Assembly: GCF_900103005.1 (NCBI RefSeq)
Contig: NZ_FMWL01000017.1
Location: 1 to 64,000 of the forward strand
Source: Acidaminobacter hydrogenoformans DSM 2784
Lineage (GTDB): Bacteria > Bacillota > Clostridia > Peptostreptococcales > Acidaminobacteraceae
Length of the DNA: 64,000 bases
Direction: 5' to 3'
The position numbers and the translations under genes were made by a program. The notes under the pieces are model-generated. The model was not told where the DNA came from and did no database searches. It saw only the letters and a program-made list of their open reading frames with translations. Positions 5,735 through 57,266 of this stretch are shown in pieces (positions within the stretch are counted from its first letter, which is position 1; every line of letters begins with the position of its first letter).

Positions 5735-7894
5735 CTATCCCTGTAGAGGCGTCACGACACTGATGACCTCCGGCAGATCCATGCCAATTTCACGCAGATA
5801 GTCCACTGTAGGCACACCCTCCGCCGTCCAGCCACGGCGCTTGTACACCGCGTCTGTGAGCTTCTCGTACTGATCCAGTCTGTAGGCTCTCATGAGGGCA
5901 ATCTTTTCCTCCACGGTTTTCCCTGCCGGATCCACACCCTGCAGCTCCAGCAGCTGCTTGTCATAGCGCTCTTCCCTTGACAGATATTCCTCTTTCGTCA
6001 CCGGACCCATGGCTCTGTAAGGCATGGCGTCATGGACTCTGAGCCCTTTTCCCATGCGGATGTTGAAAATCCTCTGGAAGTTATAGACCCTTTCCGACTG
6101 ACGGATCAGCTCATGCTTGTCTATGGACGCCCCCGTCACCCCATTGTAAAGATCCACATAGTTCTGCACGTGCTCCGGAATCTTTGCCGGTTCATCCGTC
6201 AGGCCATTGTCCGCAGGCGTCGTGTCGTTCCACGGCAGCTTACAGAGTCCCATCAGGCCAAACCAGGTCCGGAACATTGGGAAGTAGTGCAGCGCCTCCG
6301 CCTTGTCCTCAAAGGTTGGAATCTGATTGTTGACCATGTCCATGAAGATCAGCCAGGCTTCGTCGTGCTGAGGCCCCTTGTTGGTCAGACCGTAGCCGCC
6401 CTGCTGAGCCAGGGACTCCTTAGGCAGGTACTCCGAAACTTCAAGGCCCTTCTGCTCCATCCCTATATCCTCAAGGAATGCCCGATCCGCGCCAAATGCC
6501 TTCTCAAAGTATTCTTTCAGGTGTCTCACCCCAAGGCCTATGTGGTACCCAAAGCCTTCCCCTCTGGACATCTGGTGCAGCAGCTCAAGCTGGGCCATGC
6601 CGTTTCCAAAGGTAAGCTCCAGACCCCCGGTGTTCTCCCTGTTGATCAGGCCCCGCTCATAGCACTCCATGGCAAAGGCCGTTATGGTCCCAAAGGAAAT
6701 GGTGTCCACTCCATAGGTGTCACAGTAGAAGTTGGCCTCCAAAATCAGCTCCGGATCAAAGATCCCGCAATTTGACCCAAGACCCGCCGCATTCTCATAC
6801 TCCGGACCGTCTATGGTCACTTTGTGGCCCTTGTACGGACCTGTTTTCAGCTCGAAGTGATCCGCTGCCTTGGCGCAGGACAATGAACACCCATACCAGC
6901 ACCCGTCCGGCATCCCCTGGGTCACATACTTTTCAATAAACACATTGGACGCGATTTTGTGCGTCTCCGGATGGCTTCCATACTGGTAGTTATGGGTTGG
7001 AAGCAGGTCATAGGCATCCATGACCTCTATGATGTTGGCCGTCCCAATCTGGTGCATGCGGCACTGGGTGGCGTCCAGGTCGTGGATCTGACGGTGGAGC
7101 TTGATCCCCGCCTTGTTGATCCGGCTTTGGTCCACCGGTTTATTCAGATTCCCCTTGGTTCCCCGGTAACGGATCACCACCGCCTTGATCTTCTTGTCCC
7201 TGAATACTCGGCCTATGCCGCCGCGACCGGCCTGCTTCAGCCTGGCCACCTGACGGCGCAGGTCGTAGAACGAAAAATTCAAAAGGCCTATGTTCGCGTA
7301 ATTCGCCGCTGTGCCTGCGCAAATCACTGAAATGTTCTTTTTGTCTTCCTCGTCCTCAGCGTACATCTCCGTCATCTGCTCCGCCAGCACATGACCGTCC
7401 ACTGCCTCAAGAGGCGCCGTCTCCACAGTGACTTTGCCGCTGTTGCCGTCTATGAAGATGATGACCTCCTGCTCTGACTTCCCGGTGATTTCCATGGCGT
7501 CAAAGCCTGAAAACTTCAGATACGGCCCAAAGTACCCCCCCACATTGGAGTCTATGGGCATGTCCGTCATGGGAGAAATCGTACAGACCAGGGATTTGCC
7601 CGAGCCCGGGTACTGGGTGATCCCGCAGATTGGCCCGCCGGCCACCACTATGGCATTTTCCGGATCGTTCCACCGGGTGGAGGGCTTGACGGCGTCCCAC
7701 AGCATCCGCAGACCGTACCCCTTTCCGCCAATAAACTTTTCCCTGACCTGGGCCGGGATGTCACGCTGCTCTACCGAAGTTTTGCCCAGATTGATATGTA
7801 ACGCCCTGTCTGTATAGCCCCGCTCTACCGGTGCCGGTTCATAATCGAACGCCGTGAGCAGCGTCCGCGCTTCCTTCATTGCTTTGATCTCCAC
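5735..7894 (-). CDS. Aldehyde:ferredoxin oxidoreductase family enzyme, long form
   Basis: Tungsten (or molybdenum) bis-pterin enzyme of the AOR family, 719 residues, roughly 100 more than the archetypal 605-residue archaeal AOR. Early family motifs are GGKGYGLRMLWD, GGPICG and GSGKS; a glycine-rich AGRGGIGRVFRDKKIKA segment follows near residue 225. The [4Fe-4S] cysteines appear as GCWYGCSLSC (CX3CX3C) with a distal Cys in LMGLCKLPWNDT; archetypal AORs have CX2CX3C, so the spacing is a variant. The GTG start has AGGAGG 7 nt upstream. The adjacent upstream gene encodes a four-cluster ferredoxin. Known members oxidise aldehydes to carboxylates with ferredoxin; some AOR-family enzymes act on aromatic substrates. 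The sampled bases are about 57% G+C against about 43% nearby. Confidence 0.9.
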   Translation of the reverse strand: MEIKAMKEARTLLTAFDYEPAPVERGYTDRALHINLGKTSVEQRDIPAQVREKFIGGKGYGLRMLWDAVKPSTRWNDPENAIVVAGGPICGITQYPGSGKSLVCTISPMTDMPIDSNVGGYFGPYLKFSGFDAMEITGKSEQEVIIFIDGNSGKVTVETAPLEAVDGHVLAEQMTEMYAEDEEDKKNISVICAGTAANYANIGLLNFSFYDLRRQVARLKQAGRGGIGRVFRDKKIKAVVIRYRGTKGNLNKPVDQSRINKAGIKLHRQIHDLDATQCRMHQIGTANIIEVMDAYDLLPTHNYQYGSHPETHKIASNVFIEKYVTQGMPDGCWYGCSLSCAKAADHFELKTGPYKGHKVTIDGPEYENAAGLGSNCGIFDPELILEANFYCDTYGVDTISFGTITAFAMECYERGLINRENTGGLELTFGNGMAQLELLHQMSRGEGFGYHIGLGVRHLKEYFEKAFGADRAFLEDIGMEQKGLEVSEYLPKESLAQQGGYGLTNKGPQHDEAWLIFMDMVNNQIPTFEDKAEALHYFPMFRTWFGLMGLCKLPWNDTTPADNGLTDEPAKIPEHVQNYVDLYNGVTGASIDKHELIRQSERVYNFQRIFNIRMGKGLRVHDAMPYRAMGPVTKEEYLSREERYDKQLLELQGVDPAGKTVEEKIALMRAYRLDQYEKLTDAVYKRRGWTAEGVPTVDYLREIGMDLPEVISVVTPLQG

Positions 7895-7954: not shown

Positions 7955-8377
7955 CTACTTGAAAAACGTCACCCTTTCAAGGGGCTCGACTTGAGCTTCC
8001 TTGTCAATATAGAGGGCCTCAGCCGGGCAAACGCCGGCGCAGATGCCGCAGGCCACACATTTATAAGGTTCGTGGAAGTCGTCATGCTGCATCATCACAG
8101 CTGCGTCGCAAAAGCCCACGCACATCAAACAACCTACACATTTTTTCTTGTCAATGCGGACCACGCCCTGCGCATCCCTGCGGATCGCCATGACCGGACA
8201 CACATCAATGCAATCACCACACTGGTTGCACACGTGGATCTTTTTATCCTGGCCCTTTTCTGTGATCCGAATCGCGGACTTCTCACGGTCCCTGACCTTG
8301 AAATAGGCGTTTGAACACGCCATTTCACAGGCGCTGCACGCTATGCAGCGGTCTTCAATCTTTTGCAGGATTTTCAA
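7955..8377 (-). CDS. Polyferredoxin with four [4Fe-4S] motifs, electron partner of AOR
   Basis: A 140-residue protein with four cysteine clusters: CIACSACEMAC, CNQCGDCIDVCP, CVGCLMCVGFC and CVACGICAGVCP, each suited to one [4Fe-4S] cluster. It resembles the small electron-transfer subunit AorA described for AOR of Aromatoleum aromaticum, and lies immediately upstream of the catalytic gene with a 60-bp gap. The TTG at 8377 is the likely start because GGAGG lies 8 nt before it; the GTG at 8386 would sit inside that site. Role: accept electrons from the tungsten centre and pass them to free ferredoxin or a flavoprotein. Confidence 0.87.
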   Translation of the reverse strand: MKILQKIEDRCIACSACEMACSNAYFKVRDREKSAIRITEKGQDKKIHVCNQCGDCIDVCPVMAIRRDAQGVVRIDKKKCVGCLMCVGFCDAAVMMQHDDFHEPYKCVACGICAGVCPAEALYIDKEAQVEPLERVTFFK

Positions 8378-8405
8378 ATCCTTCACCTCCGAAAAATATA
8401 ACGTG

Positions 8406-8492: not shown

Positions 8493-9641
8493 CTATACTA
8501 CGGAAGGCTCAAAGACCAGTTTGTTATCCTTAATCCTGCTGAGCGTTAAAGTTTCAACAGGCAATGTCAGCTTTTCGCCCAATATATATTCCGACATGAT
8601 GAGTCCTGTCGACGGTCCAAACATAAAACCATGTCCACTGAATCCAGCCGCCAAATAAAAGCCTTCCAAGCCATCAACCGGACCATAAATAGGTTGACGG
8701 TCCGGCGACATATTATAAAGTCCGGCCCATTGTCTCAGAACCCTTGCTTCTCTGAGAGGCGGCAAAAGCTTTGTCGCGCAAAGCGCCATTTCCTCCAGGA
8801 ACTGCCAGCTGGCAGTGGTCCTTAGGTCCCTTGGCTCGTTTTCATCACCACGTCCCATAATAATGCCGCCATGGGGCACCTGCTGACAATAAATATTTAA
8901 GGAAAATGACATGACCATAGGCCCTAAAATTTCTTCAATAGGCTCTGTTACCAGAATCTGATGACGTTCAGAATAAACGGGGAGATCTATGCCCGCCATT
9001 TGGGCAATGATTTGGGAATAGCCTCCTGCTGCGTTGAGAACAACAGGTGTTGCCACATTCCCTTTATTGGTTTTAACACCTTTGATTTTCCCGTTTTCAA
9101 CCTCAATTCCGGTCACCTCGGTATGCGTCATGATGGTGGCCCCAAGGCGTTTTGCAGCGTCCGCGAAAGCTTGCGTAGTATGAAAAGGATTCAAGTGACC
9201 ATCTTTCTCATGAAAGGCTGCAGAAATTAAGCCCTCCGTATTGAGGTACGGCACAATTTCCTTCGCTTCTTCCAAAGTCAAGAGCTTCGAGTTAATCCCC
9301 ATTCGGTTCTGCACTTCAATATTCTTGATAAACTGCTCATGCTCCCGTTCAGTGCTGGAGACCAACAAATAGCCGCCTTGTTTAAACTCAATATCGCCAT
9401 CATATTTCAGTTCTTCATTTGCATTTTCGAAGAAATCACACGAGTGCTTCGAAATCATGCAGTTCAGCTCAGTCCCCCACTGCTGACGAATTCCTGCGCC
9501 ACAGCGGCCAGTGGATCCACTCGCGAGATAACCTTTTTCAATGAGAAGGACATTTTTAACACCCTTTTTCGCTAGAAAATACGCAGTCGCGCAGCCTGAA
9601 ATACCGCCGCCTATGATGACGACATCTGCCGTCTTCATCAT
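8493..9641 (-). CDS. FAD-dependent amino-acid oxidoreductase (DAO family), catalytic subunit
   Basis: A 382-residue flavoprotein with N-terminal FAD-binding VIIGGGISGCATAYF (residue 8 onward) and the GSTGRCGAGIRQQWGT segment seen in sarcosine oxidase beta, L-proline dehydrogenase beta and octopine/nopaline oxidase subunit B. The C-terminal GFYLAAGFSGHGFMFGP is typical of the family. Such subunits oxidise secondary or N-substituted amino acids (sarcosine, proline, hydroxyproline, opines). Its ATG overlaps the stop of the preceding gene (ATGA), indicating one complex. The substrate cannot be read from sequence; import through the upstream NSS transporter suggests a small amino acid. Confidence 0.85.
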   Translation of the reverse strand: MMKTADVVIIGGGISGCATAYFLAKKGVKNVLLIEKGYLASGSTGRCGAGIRQQWGTELNCMISKHSCDFFENANEELKYDGDIEFKQGGYLLVSSTEREHEQFIKNIEVQNRMGINSKLLTLEEAKEIVPYLNTEGLISAAFHEKDGHLNPFHTTQAFADAAKRLGATIMTHTEVTGIEVENGKIKGVKTNKGNVATPVVLNAAGGYSQIIAQMAGIDLPVYSERHQILVTEPIEEILGPMVMSFSLNIYCQQVPHGGIIMGRGDENEPRDLRTTASWQFLEEMALCATKLLPPLREARVLRQWAGLYNMSPDRQPIYGPVDGLEGFYLAAGFSGHGFMFGPSTGLIMSEYILGEKLTLPVETLTLSRIKDNKLVFEPSVV

Positions 9642-10423
9642 TTGAGGTGCCCCCTTTCCGCTTCATCCGCAATTTCACCAAGCTTGAGGGACTTGACAGG
9701 CTGCCTGTACGTTCCCAGTGCAAGGGCATCCAGAGATTTTCCCGTCATGACTGCAATTTCCTTTAGGACTATTGGACCACAGTTTTTTGACTGACAAGGG
9801 CCCATCCCTACACGGCTGATCCGTTTGATTTCATCAAAAGTCGTGTAGCCTTTGCGGATCAATCCTCTGATTTCACCTAAGCTGACATCCGAGCATCTGC
9901 AGACTATGACGTCGTCATCTGCTTGGTTGACCTCCACGGGTTCCACTTTAATATTTCTGATTTGACGGATAAAAGGCTTTCCTACGGCGACTGAAACTAC
10001 CGCCGTCCTGTCTGTTGCTTTTGTGTTGAAGACTTTGACCACTTTCACAGGTGTAATAAAATTACCTTCTCGGTCCAGACCCTTGATGACCATGCCCGGT
10101 TCAGGCATTGGGAAAAATTCATAAGGCAGTTTTACTAATGCCTCAGTTTCTGAATAAGTCATATCCACGGCCATGATCGCAAGGCCAGGACATTTGCTGA
10201 TGCAAAGGCCACAGCCGTTGCAATTCTCTTCGACAACAATTGGCCTGTCATTGATATCCTCGAAAGGCTTGATACCGCCGCGATGACAAACGGTATAACA
10301 TGGATTGCATGGTATTTTTTTGTAACATTCAATCACAATAATTGGCCCCTGATTCAGACGTTCTTCAGACGGAAAGACGCTGTCGATGTCCTCAGGCGTT
10401 GGTATTCCTGTATTTTCGAGCAT
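9638..10423 (-). CDS. Iron-sulfur subunit with ferredoxin and BFD-like domains
   Basis: A 261-residue electron-transfer subunit. Near the N-terminus are CYKKIPCNPCYTVC and CNGCGLCISKCPG, the second a classic [4Fe-4S] motif. The C-terminal third has CRCSDVSLGEIRGLIRKG and GPCQSKNCGP, the C-x-C...C-x4-C layout of BFD-like [2Fe-2S] domains that also occur in HcnB/OoxA-type subunits. The ATG at 10423 is the working start with GGAGG 11 nt upstream; the in-frame GTG at 10441 is an alternative. It sits between the two flavoprotein genes, so it probably bridges electrons between them. Confidence 0.82.
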   Translation of the reverse strand: MLENTGIPTPEDIDSVFPSEERLNQGPIIVIECYKKIPCNPCYTVCHRGGIKPFEDINDRPIVVEENCNGCGLCISKCPGLAIMAVDMTYSETEALVKLPYEFFPMPEPGMVIKGLDREGNFITPVKVVKVFNTKATDRTAVVSVAVGKPFIRQIRNIKVEPVEVNQADDDVIVCRCSDVSLGEIRGLIRKGYTTFDEIKRISRVGMGPCQSKNCGPIVLKEIAVMTGKSLDALALGTYRQPVKSLKLGEIADEAERGHLK

Positions 10424-10489
10424 TGCACTCAACACCTCCACTCCATTTTACAAGCAGGCTATTCAAAATCGTGAAACTGATGAAAGAGA

Positions 10490-11596
10490 CTAAGCGGTAG
10501 TGGCTGCAGTGGCTGTTGTGGCTACAGTGGCTTCGGAGATTCCTTGTCTGATCCTTGTGCCTTCAGGACCAGCGCGAAGGGCCTCAAGCTGACTCATATA
10601 ATCCTTTTTCAATGCCATAAGGCGTTCTGAATGCTTACCTGTATACTCTGCAGCAGAAAGACCTGCCAAATAACCTTCCACCATGGCACTGCTGGCCTCC
10701 TCGATGCCAGCGACGTCCCCGGCAATGAACAGTCCTTGCACAGAGGTCATCATTTCCGAATTTCGTACCGGTACATAACCGCCTAAAGCGGCAAGATATT
10801 TCATTTCACAGCCGGCTTGCCAGAGGAGTTCAGAGAGCGGTGACAGACCTACAGCAATGCACATGACATCCACGTCAAGGTCGATCTCTGTTCCCGGGAT
10901 AGGCCTCCAGTGATCATCCAACTGCCAGATGGTTGCGCTTTCCAGAGAATCTTTCCCTCGCGCTTCTTTGACAGTGTACTTCGTGTAAATTGGAATGCCC
11001 AACCGTCTAATTTTTGAAGCATGAACCAGATAGCCGCCAATTTTCGGACTGCCTTCCACAATTGCCTTAACATTAATGCCTGACTGCATGAGCTGATAGC
11101 TCACAATTAAACCTATATTTCCGGCGCCCACCATGAGTACATTATCACCCGGTTTGACCCCATAGACATTCATCAGCGTCTGAACCGCACCCGCGCCATA
11201 GATGCCAGGCAAATCATTATTCGGGAACGGAATGCTCTTTTCGCTGGCGCCCGTCGCCACAACTATGGACTGCGGCGCGACTTTCAAATATGTACCTTCT
11301 TTTTCAAGTGTGACAATGCGGTCTTCATACATACCTACTACGGTTGTATTTTTCCAGACCTCTATGTTGGGGGCCTGATCTATTTTTTCAAGCAAAAGCT
11401 TGCCAATGTCTATGCCTCTTGTTGATGCGTACTGTTTTTCCGAACCAAAGAACATATGTGTCTGTTTGACAAGCTGTCCCCCAAGGGCGCCGTCTCTTTC
11501 AACCACTAAAACCTGACAACCCATTTCCGCTGCGCTGAGTGCCGCGCATAATCCGGCCGGTCCTCCACCTATGATCAGTGTTTCCACATTCTTCAC
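10490..11596 (-). CDS. FAD/NAD(P)-dependent oxidoreductase subunit (HcnB/OoxA-like)
   Basis: A 368-residue pyridine-nucleotide-disulfide-type flavoprotein with two dinucleotide folds: TLIIGGGPAGLCAALSA at the N-terminus and MVGAGNIGLIVSYQ near residue 153, and the closing LFIAGDVAGIEEASSA motif. It resembles HcnB, OoxA and archaeal proline dehydrogenase alpha cores but lacks their fused BFD domain, which here is a separate gene. The GTG start overlaps the TGA of the preceding (2Fe-2S) gene. The last residues are a low-complexity Ala/Thr tail encoded by four copies of a 9-nt repeat. Confidence 0.83.
   Translation of the reverse strand: MKNVETLIIGGGPAGLCAALSAAEMGCQVLVVERDGALGGQLVKQTHMFFGSEKQYASTRGIDIGKLLLEKIDQAPNIEVWKNTTVVGMYEDRIVTLEKEGTYLKVAPQSIVVATGASEKSIPFPNNDLPGIYGAGAVQTLMNVYGVKPGDNVLMVGAGNIGLIVSYQLMQSGINVKAIVEGSPKIGGYLVHASKIRRLGIPIYTKYTVKEARGKDSLESATIWQLDDHWRPIPGTEIDLDVDVMCIAVGLSPLSELLWQAGCEMKYLAALGGYVPVRNSEMMTSVQGLFIAGDVAGIEEASSAMVEGYLAGLSAAEYTGKHSERLMALKKDYMSQLEALRAGPEGTRIRQGISEATVATTATAATTA
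10500..10535 (+). repeat. Four 9-nt tandem repeats at a gene's 3' end
   Basis: Plus strand GTGGCTNNN occurs four times in register (GTGGCTGCA, GTGGCTGTT, GTGGCTACA, GTGGCTTCG). On the coding strand it gives the Ala/Thr/Val tail of the HcnB-like subunit. The unit is a multiple of three, so copy-number change would lengthen the tail without a frameshift. Confidence 0.7.
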
Positions 11597-11904
11597 AGAA
11601 GCTCACCCTTTCCTTCCTGCGTCCTGACCGTCATTCCCTCCTTGAGCATAGTCACACAAACCTTGACATTTGCTTCACCATTGACCTCCATCATGCAGGA
11701 TGAGCAGTTGCCTATCGCGCAATAGAAACCTCTTGGCCGCCCGCGCTCAATACTATGACTTAACACTTTGACACCAGCGGCGTGCAGTGCCGCTGCGATC
11801 GTTTCACCCTCGAAACCTGAAACCTCTTTGCCATCAAAATTGAAATTTATTTTTTTCCCTCGATTAAAAGTTAATATTGGATGTGATTCGAGTCTGGATG
11901 ACAT
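11593..11904 (-). CDS. (2Fe-2S)-binding small subunit (HcnA-like)
   Basis: A 103-residue ferredoxin-like protein of the Fer2_4 type. The cluster ligands appear as CAIGNCSSC followed by VKVC, the C-x4-C-x2-C...C pattern of HcnA, OoxA-associated and sarcosine-oxidase small subunits. ATG 11904 is preferred (GGGGG about 9 nt upstream). The upstream extension to 11958 has no ribosome site. It is the first gene of the tightly coupled set 11904-8493, overlapping the next gene by four bases. Confidence 0.82.
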   Translation of the reverse strand: MSSRLESHPILTFNRGKKINFNFDGKEVSGFEGETIAAALHAAGVKVLSHSIERGRPRGFYCAIGNCSSCMMEVNGEANVKVCVTMLKEGMTVRTQEGKGELL

Positions 11905-12033
11905 GATGACATACCCCCTTTGGTCGAAGCCCTCATTAAAATTCAAAGCAGAAGGCATTTGTTCAAATTAATCAGCACCACACAGTTTTTCACGCCTAAA
12001 GCCAGTAGATTCTATCAGTCAGAATGACACAAG

Positions 12034-12210: not shown

Positions 12211-13725
12211 TTACGCACGCTCCTCTGCAATGAACTGGACGTCTTCCTCAGCTGTGATGTCCCGGCCCGGTCCGACCTTGTCTGCCAGCCAGTTGTTGGC
12301 GAGAATAGAGCCAATAATGACAATTGCACACTGGAATATGATCGTTCCAGGTGTGAATACTTCAAACGGCGCCCACCAGTTGTCCGGATACCAGCCAATT
12401 GCCTGCCAGAACCACCAGCCTGTAATCATAACGAAGAAAACTGGGAATAGTCTGATGCAAGTCGACCACCATTTTCCAATCTGGTAATCCGACCAAGGCA
12501 TATTGATGAGTTCTGTACGCGCCTTCTCTACGCCATACTTGACCATAGCGAACGCGACGAAAAGTCCGCTGACGAGGAGACCAATCCCCCAAACCCAGTC
12601 CTGGTTGTCCAGGAAGTTAAGGCTGTAGGCCGATGGTATCCCGAGAAGGAAACTCCCTACAACCACAATAAGCGTGGCTTTCTTTCTGTCGTGGCCCATA
12701 TCCATAAGATTTCGAACGCCAACCTCAACCATTGGAAGAAGTGAGGACAGGGCTGCGATTGCCATTGCAAGGAAGAATATAGCTGCCGCAAAATTGCCTA
12801 ATGGCATCCTCGTAAAGAGCTGAGCCAAATAAATGAAGGTGATCCCCGTGTTGCCCTGAGCGAGCGCTTCGTTAGCGAACTCGACCGTAGGCGACAGCGC
12901 GAAGATCGCAGGAAGGACTGTCATGCCCGCGATGAGTGCACCAACGTTATCTCCTACACCCATGATAAGGCAGTTGCCGGCGACATCTTCTTTTCGTTTC
13001 GTGTAAACTGCATATGTAATAATGAAACCCCAGCCTGCGCCAGTCGACCAAGCTGCCTGCGTGAAAGCTGCCAGCCAAATCTGAGGCTCAGCCAACATGT
13101 GAAGCTTAGGGCTGAACAGATATTCCAATCCTTGAGCTGCCCCAGGAAGGGTGATCGCCCTGATCATAGCCGTGATGAGCAGGAAAAACAGAGTAGGGAT
13201 CATGATTTTCGAAGCTTTTTCTATACCTTTGGTGACACCTTGATAAATAATGAAGCCTGCAATGCCCATTGAAATAAAGTGGAACAAGATGGTTTGCGAT
13301 GGTGTCGTCGTGAATACATTCCAGATTTCAGCAGTCTGCTCTGTTCCCATGCCTGGCTTAAAGGTGCCGGAAACCGCCAAAGTAAAGTATTTGACGCACC
13401 AGCCCATGACAACGGAGTAGTAAAATGCAATGGCCAGACAAACGACCATGATCCAGGTACCCATCCATGTATATTTCTTACCTATGAAATCTCTGAAGGC
13501 ACCTACTGTGCCAAGGCCTGTCTTTCTGCCCATGACCATTTCGCCCATCAGCAGAGGAATTGCCCATACAAACAGCGCGATCGTCCATGCGATAATGAAT
13601 GGTCCACCGCCGTTCGCAGCAGCGACTCGCGGAAATCTCCAGATATTACCTGTTCCGATGGCCATGCCTATCGAAGCAAGAATAAATCCCCAACGACTTC
13701 CCCATTGTTCGGTGTTTTTGCTCAT
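12211..13725 (-). CDS. Sodium:neurotransmitter symporter (NSS) family amino-acid transporter
   Basis: A 504-residue polytopic membrane protein. The N-terminus WGSRWGFILASIGMAIGTGNIWRFP is the diagnostic TM1 of NSS proteins, with the unwound GMAIGTGN sodium/substrate region and NGGGPFIIAW in TM2. Family members import amino acids with Na+. ATG 13725 has AGGGGG upstream. It is the first gene after a sigma-54 promoter, with a leader of about 170 nt, and is followed by a MetS-like small subunit. Together with the amino-acid dehydrogenase genes downstream this suggests import of the dehydrogenase substrate. Substrate identity is unknown. Confidence 0.92.
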   Translation of the reverse strand: MSKNTEQWGSRWGFILASIGMAIGTGNIWRFPRVAAANGGGPFIIAWTIALFVWAIPLLMGEMVMGRKTGLGTVGAFRDFIGKKYTWMGTWIMVVCLAIAFYYSVVMGWCVKYFTLAVSGTFKPGMGTEQTAEIWNVFTTTPSQTILFHFISMGIAGFIIYQGVTKGIEKASKIMIPTLFFLLITAMIRAITLPGAAQGLEYLFSPKLHMLAEPQIWLAAFTQAAWSTGAGWGFIITYAVYTKRKEDVAGNCLIMGVGDNVGALIAGMTVLPAIFALSPTVEFANEALAQGNTGITFIYLAQLFTRMPLGNFAAAIFFLAMAIAALSSLLPMVEVGVRNLMDMGHDRKKATLIVVVGSFLLGIPSAYSLNFLDNQDWVWGIGLLVSGLFVAFAMVKYGVEKARTELINMPWSDYQIGKWWSTCIRLFPVFFVMITGWWFWQAIGWYPDNWWAPFEVFTPGTIIFQCAIVIIGSILANNWLADKVGPGRDITAEEDVQFIAEERA

Positions 13726-13906
13726 TCACATTGTCCCCCTTAGATTTTTTAGTACGAAACGTCGGTCCTCCTTCCTGGCCAGATCATTTAATCTCAACGT
13801 CGCGCCGAGCAAGCGCGGCGGGCCAACCCTCAGTACTGTTATAACCGGTTTAGGTACACTTGTGACAGCAGCGTAATAACTTACAGGTCGCTTTGCTTTA
13901 ATACAC

Positions 13907-13922
13907 TGCAAGCCCTATGCCA
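13907..13922 (-). promoter_or_regulatory. Sigma-54 (-24/-12) promoter for the transporter-dehydrogenase operon
   Basis: The minus strand reads TGGCATAGGGCTTGCA, matching TGGCAC-N5-TTGCA with a single change and exact GG/GC spacing. It faces the NSS transporter gene. A sigma-54 activator gene lies directly upstream on the same strand and TGTC/GACA dyads lie in between. Transcription should begin near 13897. Confidence 0.88.
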
Positions 13923-14028
13923 CATTTTACGTATTCACAAAAAACAATAAAAAAAAATAAAGCTCAGCATTTGGAATGCTTTTAGCTTATTTTTATAAAG
14001 AAAAACTAAATCACGCGCGACACCTTGC

Positions 14029-14044
14029 TGTCAGTTTTTCGACA
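14029..14044. promoter_or_regulatory. Candidate activator site 1 (TGTC-N8-GACA dyad)
   Basis: TGTCAGTTTTTCGACA. It matches the two dyads at 14129 and 14147 in form and lies outside the terminator hairpin, about 140 bp upstream of the predicted sigma-54 start site. Confidence 0.65.
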
Positions 14045-14104
14045 CTTTTCAAACCACTTAATCGTCAATTTCTCGTAAATTCGCTATCCTATGAGTACTT
14101 TTTT

Positions 14105-14156
14105 TATATTTAAGAAAAAAGCCGACACTGTCAATTTGTTGACACGTGTCGGCTTT
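14105..14156 (-). terminator. Terminator of the sigma-54 activator gene
   Basis: On the minus strand AAAAGCCGACAC pairs with GTGTCGGCTTTT, with an inner GTCAA/TTGAC stem on a 4-nt loop, and TTTTTTCTT follows. It lies 17 bases past the activator stop codon and isolates the activator from the sigma-54 operon. It overlaps candidate activator sites 2 and 3. Confidence 0.85.
14129..14144. promoter_or_regulatory. Candidate activator site 2 (TGTC-N8-GACA dyad)
   Basis: TGTCAATTTGTTGACA, a perfect 6-bp dyad around TTTG, exactly 100 bp from site 1. It also forms the apex of the terminator hairpin of the activator gene. Confidence 0.6.
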
Positions 14157-14162
14157 TCGACA
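14147..14162. promoter_or_regulatory. Candidate activator site 3 (TGTC-N8-GACA dyad)
   Basis: TGTCGGCTTTTCGACA, centred 18 bp from site 2. Closely paired sites would suit cooperative loading of an activator dimer pair. It overlaps one arm of the terminator hairpin. Confidence 0.55.
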
Positions 14163-14172
14163 CCCTTAGTAC

Positions 14173-15957
14173 TTAAATCCCATACTGACTGATTTTGTAA
14201 TAGAGTGTACTTCTCGGTATGTTTAAAGCTTCTGCTGCTTTCTTTTTGTTCCCGTTATGCGCTTCAAGCGCTTTTGAAATCATCTCAATCTCTTTTTGCC
14301 GAACCTTACTCTCAACTTCAGACAACGTCTCTGACGCCGTCAACACTTCCCCTGCCCTGTCTTCACAAGGCGATATCATACCCGCTTGCGTCAGAATGGA
14401 CGGCAGCGACTCGGACGTCAATTGATTCGAGCGGCCCACGACCAGCATATATTCGACCACATTTCTCAGCTCGCGGATATTGCCGGGCCAGTTGTAGTTA
14501 AGAAGTGCATTGAAAACCGAATTGTCAACATGGGGCATTTTGCGGTGATTTTTTTTGCAGCCTTCTTCCAGAAAGCGGTTAAAAAGTAGTACAAGATCCT
14601 CGCGTCTCTCCCTCAGTGGTGGCAAATGGATCTCGACGACATTCAAGCGGTAAAAGAGATCCTCTCGAAAATTCCCCGCTTTGACCATTTCAGCGAGGTT
14701 CCTGTTGGTCGCACAAATGACTCTGACGTCGACGGGCGTACGGCGTTCAGCGCCAACTTTGGAGATCATGCCATCCTGAAGCACTCTGAGCAGCTTGGCT
14801 TGATGCTCCAGAGGAAGATCGCCAATTTCATCCAAAAATAGGGTGCCTTCGTTCGCAAGCTCAAAGAATCCAATCTTTCCAGTTCTCAGTGCCCCGGTAA
14901 ACGCCCCGCCCACATAGCCAAAAAACTCGCTTTCAAAGAGCGCAGAAGGAATTGCACTGCAATTGACGGGGACAAACAAACCGGGTCTGCGGCTGCCCTC
15001 GTGAATAGCACGGGCAAACACCTCTTTTCCCGTACCACTTTCCCCTGTCAGCATAACGTTGGTATCTGTCGCCGCCACATGCTTAGCCAGCTCAATGCGA
15101 TCCTGAACCACCGCGTTGTTCCCAAGAATACCGCCAAAAGAAAAGCTGCCCTTAGTCATTTTTTCCACTTCTTTTTTCAATAGGTCAATTTCAACATTTG
15201 CATTGACGAGTTCATTCGTCAGCTGATTGTACTCCGTTACGTCCCTCTCTGTAGCGACAACGCCAAGGTATTCCCCGTCCACGATAATGGGCAAAGCGCT
15301 GATGATGACATAATAATTTGGCTTTGGCGAGTGATACACGTTTTCTATGGGAATACCCGTCTTCATCACTGATAGGCTGAGCGCATTCGGGAAAAAATCT
15401 TCCAGCTTTTTGTAAAGTATTTCTGAGGCTTTCATATTGTAAATGCGTTCTGCGTTCTTGTTCCAGAGCAAGACGTTGCCATCCCTGTCCGTCACAGTGA
15501 CTGCTTCGTGCATTTGGTGGATAACGGCCATATATTGTTTGTTGACGATTTCCAAAAAACGATAATAGCTGTCCCGCAGGTTTGCGATTCGAATAATTCC
15601 AGTGATCCTGCTGCCGTTGAGAATGGGAAGGCATCCAATATTTTGGTCTATAATCGTCTGTCTTGCATCTGTGAGCAGCATTTCCTCTGTACCGGTGACA
15701 ACATTTTTCAGAGCCACGCTGGAAAGCGGCTTATCAAAGCTCACACCTTGCTGCATCAGCGCTGAAACATCCGTATACGTCAGGATGCCAAGCAGCTGCT
15801 CCCCCTCTTTAAGTGTCCGGATGACCAGGACTTCCGGAATGTCGTTCTTCAGCATCTCTTCAACAGCATAAGACAGCTTTTCACTTGGCTCCAGCTTCAA
15901 CAAGTTTTCAGACATGACCCCATTGACTGTATACTTGGAAAATTGGACTTCTAGCAT
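14173..15957 (-). CDS. Sigma-54-dependent transcriptional activator (CBS-CBS-PAS-AAA-Fis HTH)
   Basis: A 594-residue enhancer-binding protein. Residues about 10-135 are a CBS pair, 140-245 a PAS domain (QMHEAVTVTDRDGNVLLWN), 275-500 the AAA+ domain with Walker A GESGTGKE, the sigma-54 contact loop GAFTGA and FLDEIGDLPL, and the end is a Fis-type helix-turn-helix (KKKAAEALNIPRSTLYYKI). CBS domains commonly sense adenine nucleotides and PAS domains small ligands or redox state. It sits upstream of a sigma-54 promoter with three dyad sites. By context it induces the transporter-dehydrogenase operon, much as PrdR-type activators control amino-acid fermentation genes; the signal is unknown. Confidence 0.93.
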   Translation of the reverse strand: MLEVQFSKYTVNGVMSENLLKLEPSEKLSYAVEEMLKNDIPEVLVIRTLKEGEQLLGILTYTDVSALMQQGVSFDKPLSSVALKNVVTGTEEMLLTDARQTIIDQNIGCLPILNGSRITGIIRIANLRDSYYRFLEIVNKQYMAVIHQMHEAVTVTDRDGNVLLWNKNAERIYNMKASEILYKKLEDFFPNALSLSVMKTGIPIENVYHSPKPNYYVIISALPIIVDGEYLGVVATERDVTEYNQLTNELVNANVEIDLLKKEVEKMTKGSFSFGGILGNNAVVQDRIELAKHVAATDTNVMLTGESGTGKEVFARAIHEGSRRPGLFVPVNCSAIPSALFESEFFGYVGGAFTGALRTGKIGFFELANEGTLFLDEIGDLPLEHQAKLLRVLQDGMISKVGAERRTPVDVRVICATNRNLAEMVKAGNFREDLFYRLNVVEIHLPPLRERREDLVLLFNRFLEEGCKKNHRKMPHVDNSVFNALLNYNWPGNIRELRNVVEYMLVVGRSNQLTSESLPSILTQAGMISPCEDRAGEVLTASETLSEVESKVRQKEIEMISKALEAHNGNKKKAAEALNIPRSTLYYKISQYGI

Positions 15958-40435: not shown

Positions 40436-42172
40436 TTACATAGCCGGTATAAGGATTACTTGACCTGGAAGAATAAGATTCGGATTGCTGAGCTTGTTGT
40501 ACTCAGCCAACTTTTGCCAGGTCGTGTTGTGCTTCAGTGCAATATGGGAAAGCGTATCCCCTGAAACAACCGTATAGGCTGTTGCCTGACCTTCTGGAAC
40601 TGGAACTGGAGTTGGAGCTGCAGGCTCTGCAGGTACTGGCGTCGTTGGAGTCTCAATTGCTGGTCCGTCATAGACCTTAATTCTGCCGTCCACTGCTGCG
40701 CTGCCCACACCGACCTCTTTAATGTATTTGACCAACGCTTCATCCAGAGCCATGAATAAACCAGCTTCCGGATAAGTCTTGAACATTTGATAGTCATCAC
40801 CACCAGCAGCCATGAAGTCGTTTGTGGCGACCAAATAACTCTTGGCAGGATCAATGGCCTTGCCGTCGATCATTGCAGTCACAACCCGCTTACCTACTTC
40901 TTTTGACGGGTCAAACTGAACTCTTATGCCCGCAAGATGCGGAAACGCACCCATTTGGTTAGGATAGTCCGTCAAGCCGTGCTCTATAGCTTTTAGCAGG
41001 TCTTCTCCTGTGATCGATTTCGTGACAATATAATTTCCAAATGGCAATACTGTTGAAACTTCACCAACGGTTATATCCCCAACGTCAATAGAAGCCCTTA
41101 TGCCACCGCCGTTTGTAATGGCTACGTCTGCCCCTGTAACGTGCAGCATGGCTTGGGTAATCAGGTTCCCCAGATTTGTTTCGCCTGTTCGAACGAGCTC
41201 ACGGGCCCCTATAAGTTCAACTGAGGTCGATCCTACCACCACTGAAGTTACGACATCCTGTTCACCTTTCAATTCTGTGATCAGATTTTTAACCGTTTCA
41301 TCTTCTGCGAGATCTGCTACCGAAGCAGCTGGAATAAGATAAGGCTTAACTGCCGCAATTTCTCCGCCACTCCAAGTGATGTCGATTCTTCCAAGACTTT
41401 CATTATATCCGCCGGTTTGAACAATTGTCACGCCATTGTTGACAATACCTGTTGAAAAACGCGTATGACTGTGCCCGCCAATGATTAAATCAACACCGGG
41501 AACCTGATAAGCAATCATTCTGTCAGTAAATTCTGAAGCTGGTTCAAGACCAAGATGGGAAAGCACAACAATGAGATCCGCTTTGCCCTCAAGTTCAGCG
41601 ACCATTGCTTTTGCCGTCTCTATTGGATTTTCGATTTTAAGTCCTTTGGTATTGTCAGGATGGGATTTGTAATAAGTCTCTGGAGTAGCAAGTCCAAAGA
41701 CACCCACTTTAACCCCACCTACTTCTTTGATGACATACCGTTCAACGAACGGTGTACCATCCTCGTTGATGACATTAGCTGCGAGGAATGGATAGTTGGC
41801 CATCTCTTCAAGCTGAAGCACTCTTTCTTTGCCATAGTTAAAGTCATGGTTGCCTAAAGTCATGGCATCATAACCAACCGCATTATAAATATCTACAATA
41901 CTTTCCCCTTTGACCAGCGTAGCAATAGTCTGGCCATGGGTAGCGTCTCCTGCGTCCAGCAGCAGAACATTAGGATTTAATGCTTTCTCCTGATTGACAA
42001 GTTTTGCGATCTTTGCGTAACCGACAACGGACGCGCTGGATTCTACCCTTGCGTGAGCGTCATTGGTGTGAAAAATTGTAATTTCGACAGTGTCATCCTC
42101 TGCCGCGAAGCCAAACCCCATCATTGAAAAAACGAGGACCAGCATCAACAGCATACTCATTTTGCGTTTCAT
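40436..42172 (-). CDS. Secreted 5'-nucleotidase/UDP-sugar hydrolase with C-terminal LysM domain
   Basis: A 578-residue exported enzyme. A signal peptide covers residues 1-24 (ends GFGFAAED). The metallophosphatase domain has HTNDAHARVE, LDAGDATHGQ, LGNHDFNYG, LSHLGLEP and GGHSHTRF; the nucleotidase C-terminal domain follows (AITNGGGIRASID, NDFMAAGGDDYQMF). After a Pro/Ala linker (about residues 505-535) a LysM domain ends the protein (YTVVSGDTLSHIALKHNTTW to QVILIPAM). LysM should anchor it to peptidoglycan. Known relatives release adenosine or phosphate from nucleotides for uptake; the fusion keeps the enzyme at the wall. Confidence 0.9.
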   Translation of the reverse strand: MKRKMSMLLMLVLVFSMMGFGFAAEDDTVEITIFHTNDAHARVESSASVVGYAKIAKLVNQEKALNPNVLLLDAGDATHGQTIATLVKGESIVDIYNAVGYDAMTLGNHDFNYGKERVLQLEEMANYPFLAANVINEDGTPFVERYVIKEVGGVKVGVFGLATPETYYKSHPDNTKGLKIENPIETAKAMVAELEGKADLIVVLSHLGLEPASEFTDRMIAYQVPGVDLIIGGHSHTRFSTGIVNNGVTIVQTGGYNESLGRIDITWSGGEIAAVKPYLIPAASVADLAEDETVKNLITELKGEQDVVTSVVVGSTSVELIGARELVRTGETNLGNLITQAMLHVTGADVAITNGGGIRASIDVGDITVGEVSTVLPFGNYIVTKSITGEDLLKAIEHGLTDYPNQMGAFPHLAGIRVQFDPSKEVGKRVVTAMIDGKAIDPAKSYLVATNDFMAAGGDDYQMFKTYPEAGLFMALDEALVKYIKEVGVGSAAVDGRIKVYDGPAIETPTTPVPAEPAAPTPVPVPEGQATAYTVVSGDTLSHIALKHNTTWQKLAEYNKLSNPNLILPGQVILIPAM

Positions 42173-57045: not shown

Positions 57046-57215
57046 CTGTTGATTTGCCTGAGAGCTTTACTCCTTCGGCGCCGCCCAATACGGCTTTTCA
57101 GAGACCTATCCTGAAGCCTTCCTTTTGCCTGAGAGTTTTTGACATCATTTGGCGAACGATATCATTGCTCCTTCGGCTACCCCTGCGGCATCTGCCGCGG
57201 TGTGATCTCAGACTT
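57043..57215 (-). promoter_or_regulatory. Tandem glycine riboswitch controlling gcvT-H-PA-PB
   Basis: On the minus strand two copies of the glycine aptamer core occur: GCCGAAGGAGCAA with CTCTCAGGCAAAAGGA, and GCGCCGAAGGAGTAAA with CTCTCAGGCAAA. The second aptamer is closed by TCTCTG/CAGAGA. Both copies match the known gcvT-type glycine riboswitch core (CGAAGGAG...CTCTCAGGCAAA). Together with the following terminator this reads as an on-switch: glycine should raise transcription of the cleavage operon. Exact ends of the first aptamer are approximate. Confidence 0.92.
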
Positions 57216-57266
57216 CAATCATCTAGAAATATTCAGCTTTTTGAATTGTGACTGGTTTTTAAAGCT

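Follow-up and report, generated by a model that had tools for sequence, protein, structure and literature searches.

The closest described counterpart of the region analysed here is the PrdR/prd proline-reductase regulon of Clostridia (NF041552; PMC6615313), in which the gene for a CBS-PAS-AAA-Fis activator is followed by multiple TGT-N10-ACA UAS and by the sigma-54 promoter from which an amino-acid operon is read. The UAS class published for PrdR is TGT-N10-12-ACA, with multiple UAS per target at 100-250 bp from the promoter, and the TGT-N10-ACA dyad class is common to many activators (PMC6615313). According to the summary in the same paper, the UAS of NifA and FhlA are also TGT-ACA inverted repeats upstream of a -24/-12 promoter, although these activators belong to families different from the one studied here. 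DNA uptake signal sequences of Neisseria and Pasteurellaceae offer a likeness of another kind, as short recognised motifs whose complementary pairs also make intrinsic terminator hairpins, and they are the nearest precedent in principle for dual use (PMC1852404); uptake signals are distributed genome-wide, whereas the dyads described below appear to serve a single operon as its enhancer and lie where the gene of their presumed binder ends. The sigma-54 promoter, the UAS class and the activator class are therefore already known. To our knowledge, the NifA and FhlA UAS have not been described as overlapping the terminator of their activator gene. No description of an enhancer-terminator overlap was found in the literature, of which our coverage was partial, so that this absence is weak evidence; the main text of the PrdR regulon paper (PMC6615313) mentions neither a terminator nor a hairpin.

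The window, a 64,000-nucleotide stretch of the Acidaminobacter hydrogenoformans genome (3.6 Mb in 41 contigs), carries all the elements discussed here on its minus strand. The sequence-only reading had placed a CBS-PAS-AAA-Fis activator directly above three TGTC-N8-GACA dyads and a -24/-12 element, and each of these was recovered. The activator gene (14173-15957) encodes 594 aa with two CBS domains, a PAS domain, an AAA+ domain and a Fis-type HTH (Pfam, NCBIfam and tree); the protein contains GGAFTGAL and matches PF00158 and PF02954, as a bacterial enhancer-binding protein should. The dyads were located by exact pattern match and by comparison of loci: A (TGTCGAAAAGCCGACA, 14147-14162), B (TGTCAACAAATTGACA, 14129-14144), 18 bp from A, and C (TGTCGAAAAACTGACA, 14029-14044), 100 bp from B. 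The promoter element TGGCATAGGGCTTGCA, recognised by pattern match and conservation, lies exactly at 13907-13922, with its GG and GC doublets in a TGGCA-N6-TTGC context, and its transcription start is expected near 13896.

The predicted target begins with an SNF-family sodium symporter of the amino-acid type (12211-13725, Pfam PF00209) and continues with an operon assigned from Pfam or family profiles and conserved linkage: a 2Fe-2S subunit (Fer2_4, 11593-11958), a sarcosine oxidase alpha-like FAD/NAD oxidoreductase subunit (10490-11596), a BFD / 4Fe-4S subunit (9638-10441), an FAD amine dehydrogenase subunit with 1y56_B as its best PDB sequence match (8493-9641), a polyferredoxin (7955-8386) and an aldehyde ferredoxin oxidoreductase (AOR) family protein (5735-7894). 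No Rfam riboswitch, sought as a clue to the substrate, was detected ahead of the symporter. Elsewhere in the window, a glycine riboswitch aptamer (RF00504, 53.9 bits) was found at 57107-57222 on the minus strand.

Neither motif was informative singly. The pattern TGGC-N7-TTGCW, with at most one mismatch, matched 40 times in the window vs 40 expected from shuffles, and a sigma-54 pattern match alone proves nothing. The sole other exact match in the window, at 41921-41936 (minus), falls within a 578-aa reading frame of that strand and is therefore probably a chance occurrence. Exact TGTC-N8-GACA dyads numbered five in the window vs 0.66 expected, and single dyads showed no genome-wide enrichment (45 vs 47 for a reversed control pattern). 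The non-chance feature is the cluster of dyad and sigma-54 site: a sigma-54 site preceded at 92-122 bp by a dyad occurred once in the genome, at this locus (reversed control, 0). When the activator loci of this genome were compared (n = 30), an exact dyad within about 1.5 kb was present at this one and at 0/29 of the others. The dyads are inverted repeats of the TGT-N10-12-ACA type, in multiple copies, at 100-250 bp from the promoter, as in the UAS published for PrdR.

The activator scored 731.8 bits against the NCBIfam model TF_PrdR (NF041552), below its equivalog cut-off of 795, and its neighbours are not prd genes: unlike the PrdR regulon, with its proline reductase, this locus pairs the activator with the symporter and the dehydrogenase/AOR operon. 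In a maximum-likelihood tree it grouped with PrdR, apart from the other activators of this genome (support 100/99). With the symporter as query in 99 relatives and the activator as query in 394 genomes of the order, searches yielded 15 orthologous activators (51-82% identity), separated by a clear gap from the remaining relatives; a class-wide search for further orthologues returned nothing beyond the window's own genome, and a named-organism search with the activator alignment retrieved distant activators only, the pattern having matched a generic AAA+ motif. The 16 orthologues, including the window protein, formed one group (support 98/96) inside the PrdR-type radiation, indicating from the phylogeny that the activator is sister to PrdR or branches within it. 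As far as we found, the orthologous group with this operon is undescribed.

Wherever the contigs extend far enough, every orthologous activator adjoins this symporter, this dehydrogenase operon or both, and a sigma-54 site (at most one mismatch) precedes the target in 16/16 loci. Most of these loci share the layout A - 18 bp - B - 79-110 bp - C - promoter. Dyad A overlaps the activator stop codon in four orthologues (L063, L096, L097 and L100), so that the enhancer starts inside the activator coding sequence there. Four loci have a divergent gene order; sigma-54 sites were present in all of them and dyads in three, with no clear dyad in L106. In one family (L079, L105 and L106) the activator and the dehydrogenase operon point away from each other, and the sigma-54 site lies in the gap; in L105 and L106 the symporter gene lies past the activator's other end, with no sigma-54 site between the activator and the symporter 3' end. 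Near the divergent locus L101, a T-box leader (RF00230) was detected at 8972-9295 (minus). Symporter homologues without such an activator upstream included none with a sigma-54 site and dyads, and L064, which carries a divergent relative of the activator, has both.

The arrangement extends to PrdR-type genes in general. A gene-blind search of the 394 genomes for the exact A-B tandem gave 14 places vs 2 for the reversed control, and in all 14 a PrdR-type activator gene ended there, the tandem beginning between -14 and +47 nt from the end of the stop codon. In the 250 bp past the stop codon of 78 PrdR-type loci there were 151 dyads (at most one mismatch) vs 4.5 in shuffles; the dominant spacing was 18 (21 pairs; 0 in shuffles), and a sigma-54 site followed within 700 bp in 67/78 loci vs 2% in shuffles. 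Four further PrdR-type loci had a sigma-54 site on the activator's other side. At the end of the PrdR-type gene of L207, two exact dyads lie 17 bp apart, suggesting that the spacing is not rigidly 18, and perfectly complementary 8-nt flanks surround the second. Nine of nine non-orthologous relatives tested against NF041552 passed the cut-off (797-895 bits), and the next gene at such loci was PrdC-like or PrdA-like, as judged by eye from the translation without a profile; by sequence, most of them appear to be PrdR proper. The A-B-C layout is thus also found beside activators above the PrdR cut-off, in front of PrdC- or PrdA-like genes.

Since the TGT-N10-ACA class is common to many activators (PMC6615313), another regulator might bind these sites while the target is read from a sigma-70-type promoter. 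This we consider highly improbable, as the tandem occurs only beside PrdR-type genes and beside no other activator gene examined in this genome, the sigma-54 site is kept in all the orthologous loci, and a scan of 13700-14400 gave no sigma-70-like promoter match on the target strand. The reading of the region as a sigma-54 promoter with a three-site UAS was accordingly supported by the promoter kept in 16/16 loci, by dyads in nearly all of these loci, which span several families, by the tandem exclusive to PrdR-type activators, and by an RpoN gene present in one copy in the genome (E = 3e-61).

The dyads could instead be merely parts of a terminator, with no protein bound to them. The placing of B at the apex of a hairpin, with half of A in the stem, is what such an explanation would predict, whereas C is conserved and 100 bp away, and the conserved spacing of 18 and the restriction of the tandem to PrdR-type genes are foreign to it. 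This explanation, to which we would give hardly any credence, was rejected because dyads survive beside a separate terminator (L098 and L103) and in divergent gene arrangements (L101, L079 and L105). The sequence-only reading had argued from C, outside the hairpin, that the dyads are real sites. This view of the dyads was supported, but C is not the best argument for it, the dyads kept beside separate terminators and in divergent order being better proof.

Folding of the activator message placed a 19-pair hairpin at 14158-14116 (-26.7 kcal/mol, z = -7.2), followed by the U run UUUUUUCUU. The transcribed strand thus has, at 14111-14158 (minus), the stable hairpin and U run of an intrinsic terminator, and this hairpin probably ends the activator message. 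A simple consensus terminator scan missed it, perhaps owing to its one-base bulge. Two dyads had been claimed to lie inside the hairpin: this holds for B, which is wholly within 14116-14158, and for half of A, whose GACA half pairs in the stem with an extra TGTC beyond B, while the other half of A lies outside. A same-genus relative retains the stem with a G-C to A-U exchange. A second, weaker hairpin with a U run (13953-13994, minus; -10.2 kcal/mol by folding) lies between C and the promoter and could possibly act as a back-up terminator.

A set of 61 dereplicated co-directional PrdR-type junctions was examined for the same overlap. A terminator was predicted in 38/61 junctions, with a stem that pairs dyad half-sites in 31, and none was predicted before the promoter in 23/61. 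The arms differ among lineages: A and B are the two arms of one long hairpin in L102, L104 and many PrdR loci (e.g. L209, L210, L217 and L231), B alone forms the terminator hairpin in L099, and C alone does so in L063, L097, L230 and L241. Statistics for the C-only hairpins were weak (flanks, p = 0.015; inner bases, p = 0.19).

The overlap might nevertheless be incidental, the dyads being UAS sites and the true 3' end being at another place, such as the second hairpin (13953-13994). Because the dyads are palindromes, T runs near them yield terminator-like calls for free, and palindromic sites beside T-rich intergenic DNA will resemble terminators; dyad-paired calls were in fact obtained on the opposite strand in 17/61 loci. 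L098 and L103 have a strong separate terminator beyond C, in a place comparable to that of the window's second hairpin, and at the divergent loci the dyad-paired call on the activator's strand was weak and limited to one locus (L079, -8.7 kcal/mol). Against this, calls on the activator strand were more frequent (31/61; discordant loci 19:5, p = 0.007), and the window hairpin is far more stable than expected, as its z value indicates. The palindromic nature of the dyads makes the bases outside the half-sites the more telling test. Complementarity between the spacer of A and that of B was 3.70 of 8 vs 2.92 permuted, and between the outer flanks 4.21 of 8 vs 2.96, both above all 20,000 permutations (p < 5e-5), p values that are optimistic because the loci share ancestry. 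The excess of A-B pairing was confined to the correct register (0.079 vs at most 0.022 elsewhere), with sequences that differ among the loci. An incidental overlap was hence judged rather unlikely, even if it is the most serious of the alternatives. The structure statistics over the 61 loci support the proposed second role of the dyads in ending the activator message, and enhancer/terminator overlap, as predicted from these sequences, recurs in many related bacteria, at about half of the junctions.

Comparative evidence thus favours, with a probability of roughly 0.83, the reading of this region as the control region of a sigma-54 regulon under a PrdR-type activator, in which the A-B hairpin would also end the activator message. 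The sites, their conservation, their exclusive linkage to PrdR-type genes and the RNA-pairing signal are direct observations on the compared loci, from which we infer binding, activation, termination and a signal. A signal, perhaps proline-like, would act on the CBS and PAS domains of the activator, whose dimers would use the Fis-type HTH to bind A, B and C. The 18-bp spacing of A and B would let two dimers sit next to each other, with a third at C, some 110-120 bp away from the promoter. Through looping of the DNA the AAA+ ring would reach the RNA polymerase-sigma-54 at 13907-13922, and opening of the promoter would lead to transcription of the symporter and the dehydrogenase operon. When transcription from the activator gene crosses A-B, the RNA of this stretch would fold into the hairpin and U run at which the activator message ends, sparing the target genes read-through and the enhancer repeated sweeping by activator transcription. 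The binding, looping and insulation steps are proposed by analogy with the families involved.

PrdR responds to proline. The dehydrogenase subunit is closest by sequence in the PDB to 1y56_B, annotated there as sarcosine oxidase; this chain is the beta subunit of an L-proline dehydrogenase from an archaeon. Given these two clues, the substrate may reasonably be guessed to be proline-like or an N-alkyl amino acid, though this is only a guess.

A further, speculative and rather doubtful proposal is that the fusion of enhancer and terminator is a functional switch in PrdR-type regulons, in which bound activator would alter elongation or termination of its own message (a roadblock), linking activator level, enhancer insulation and target output; selection would then have favoured the fusion and rebuilt it from different dyads (A-B arms, B or C) across lineages.

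These results define likely binding sites and a target operon for a widespread, apparently undescribed sister of PrdR. They also indicate that the enhancer of PrdR-type regulons very often acts, once transcribed into RNA, as terminator of the activator gene. One stretch of DNA would then end one transcript and start the next, making a compact and directly testable gene junction. Motif finders are prone to error at such junctions, where terminators may be mistaken for sites and sites for terminators.
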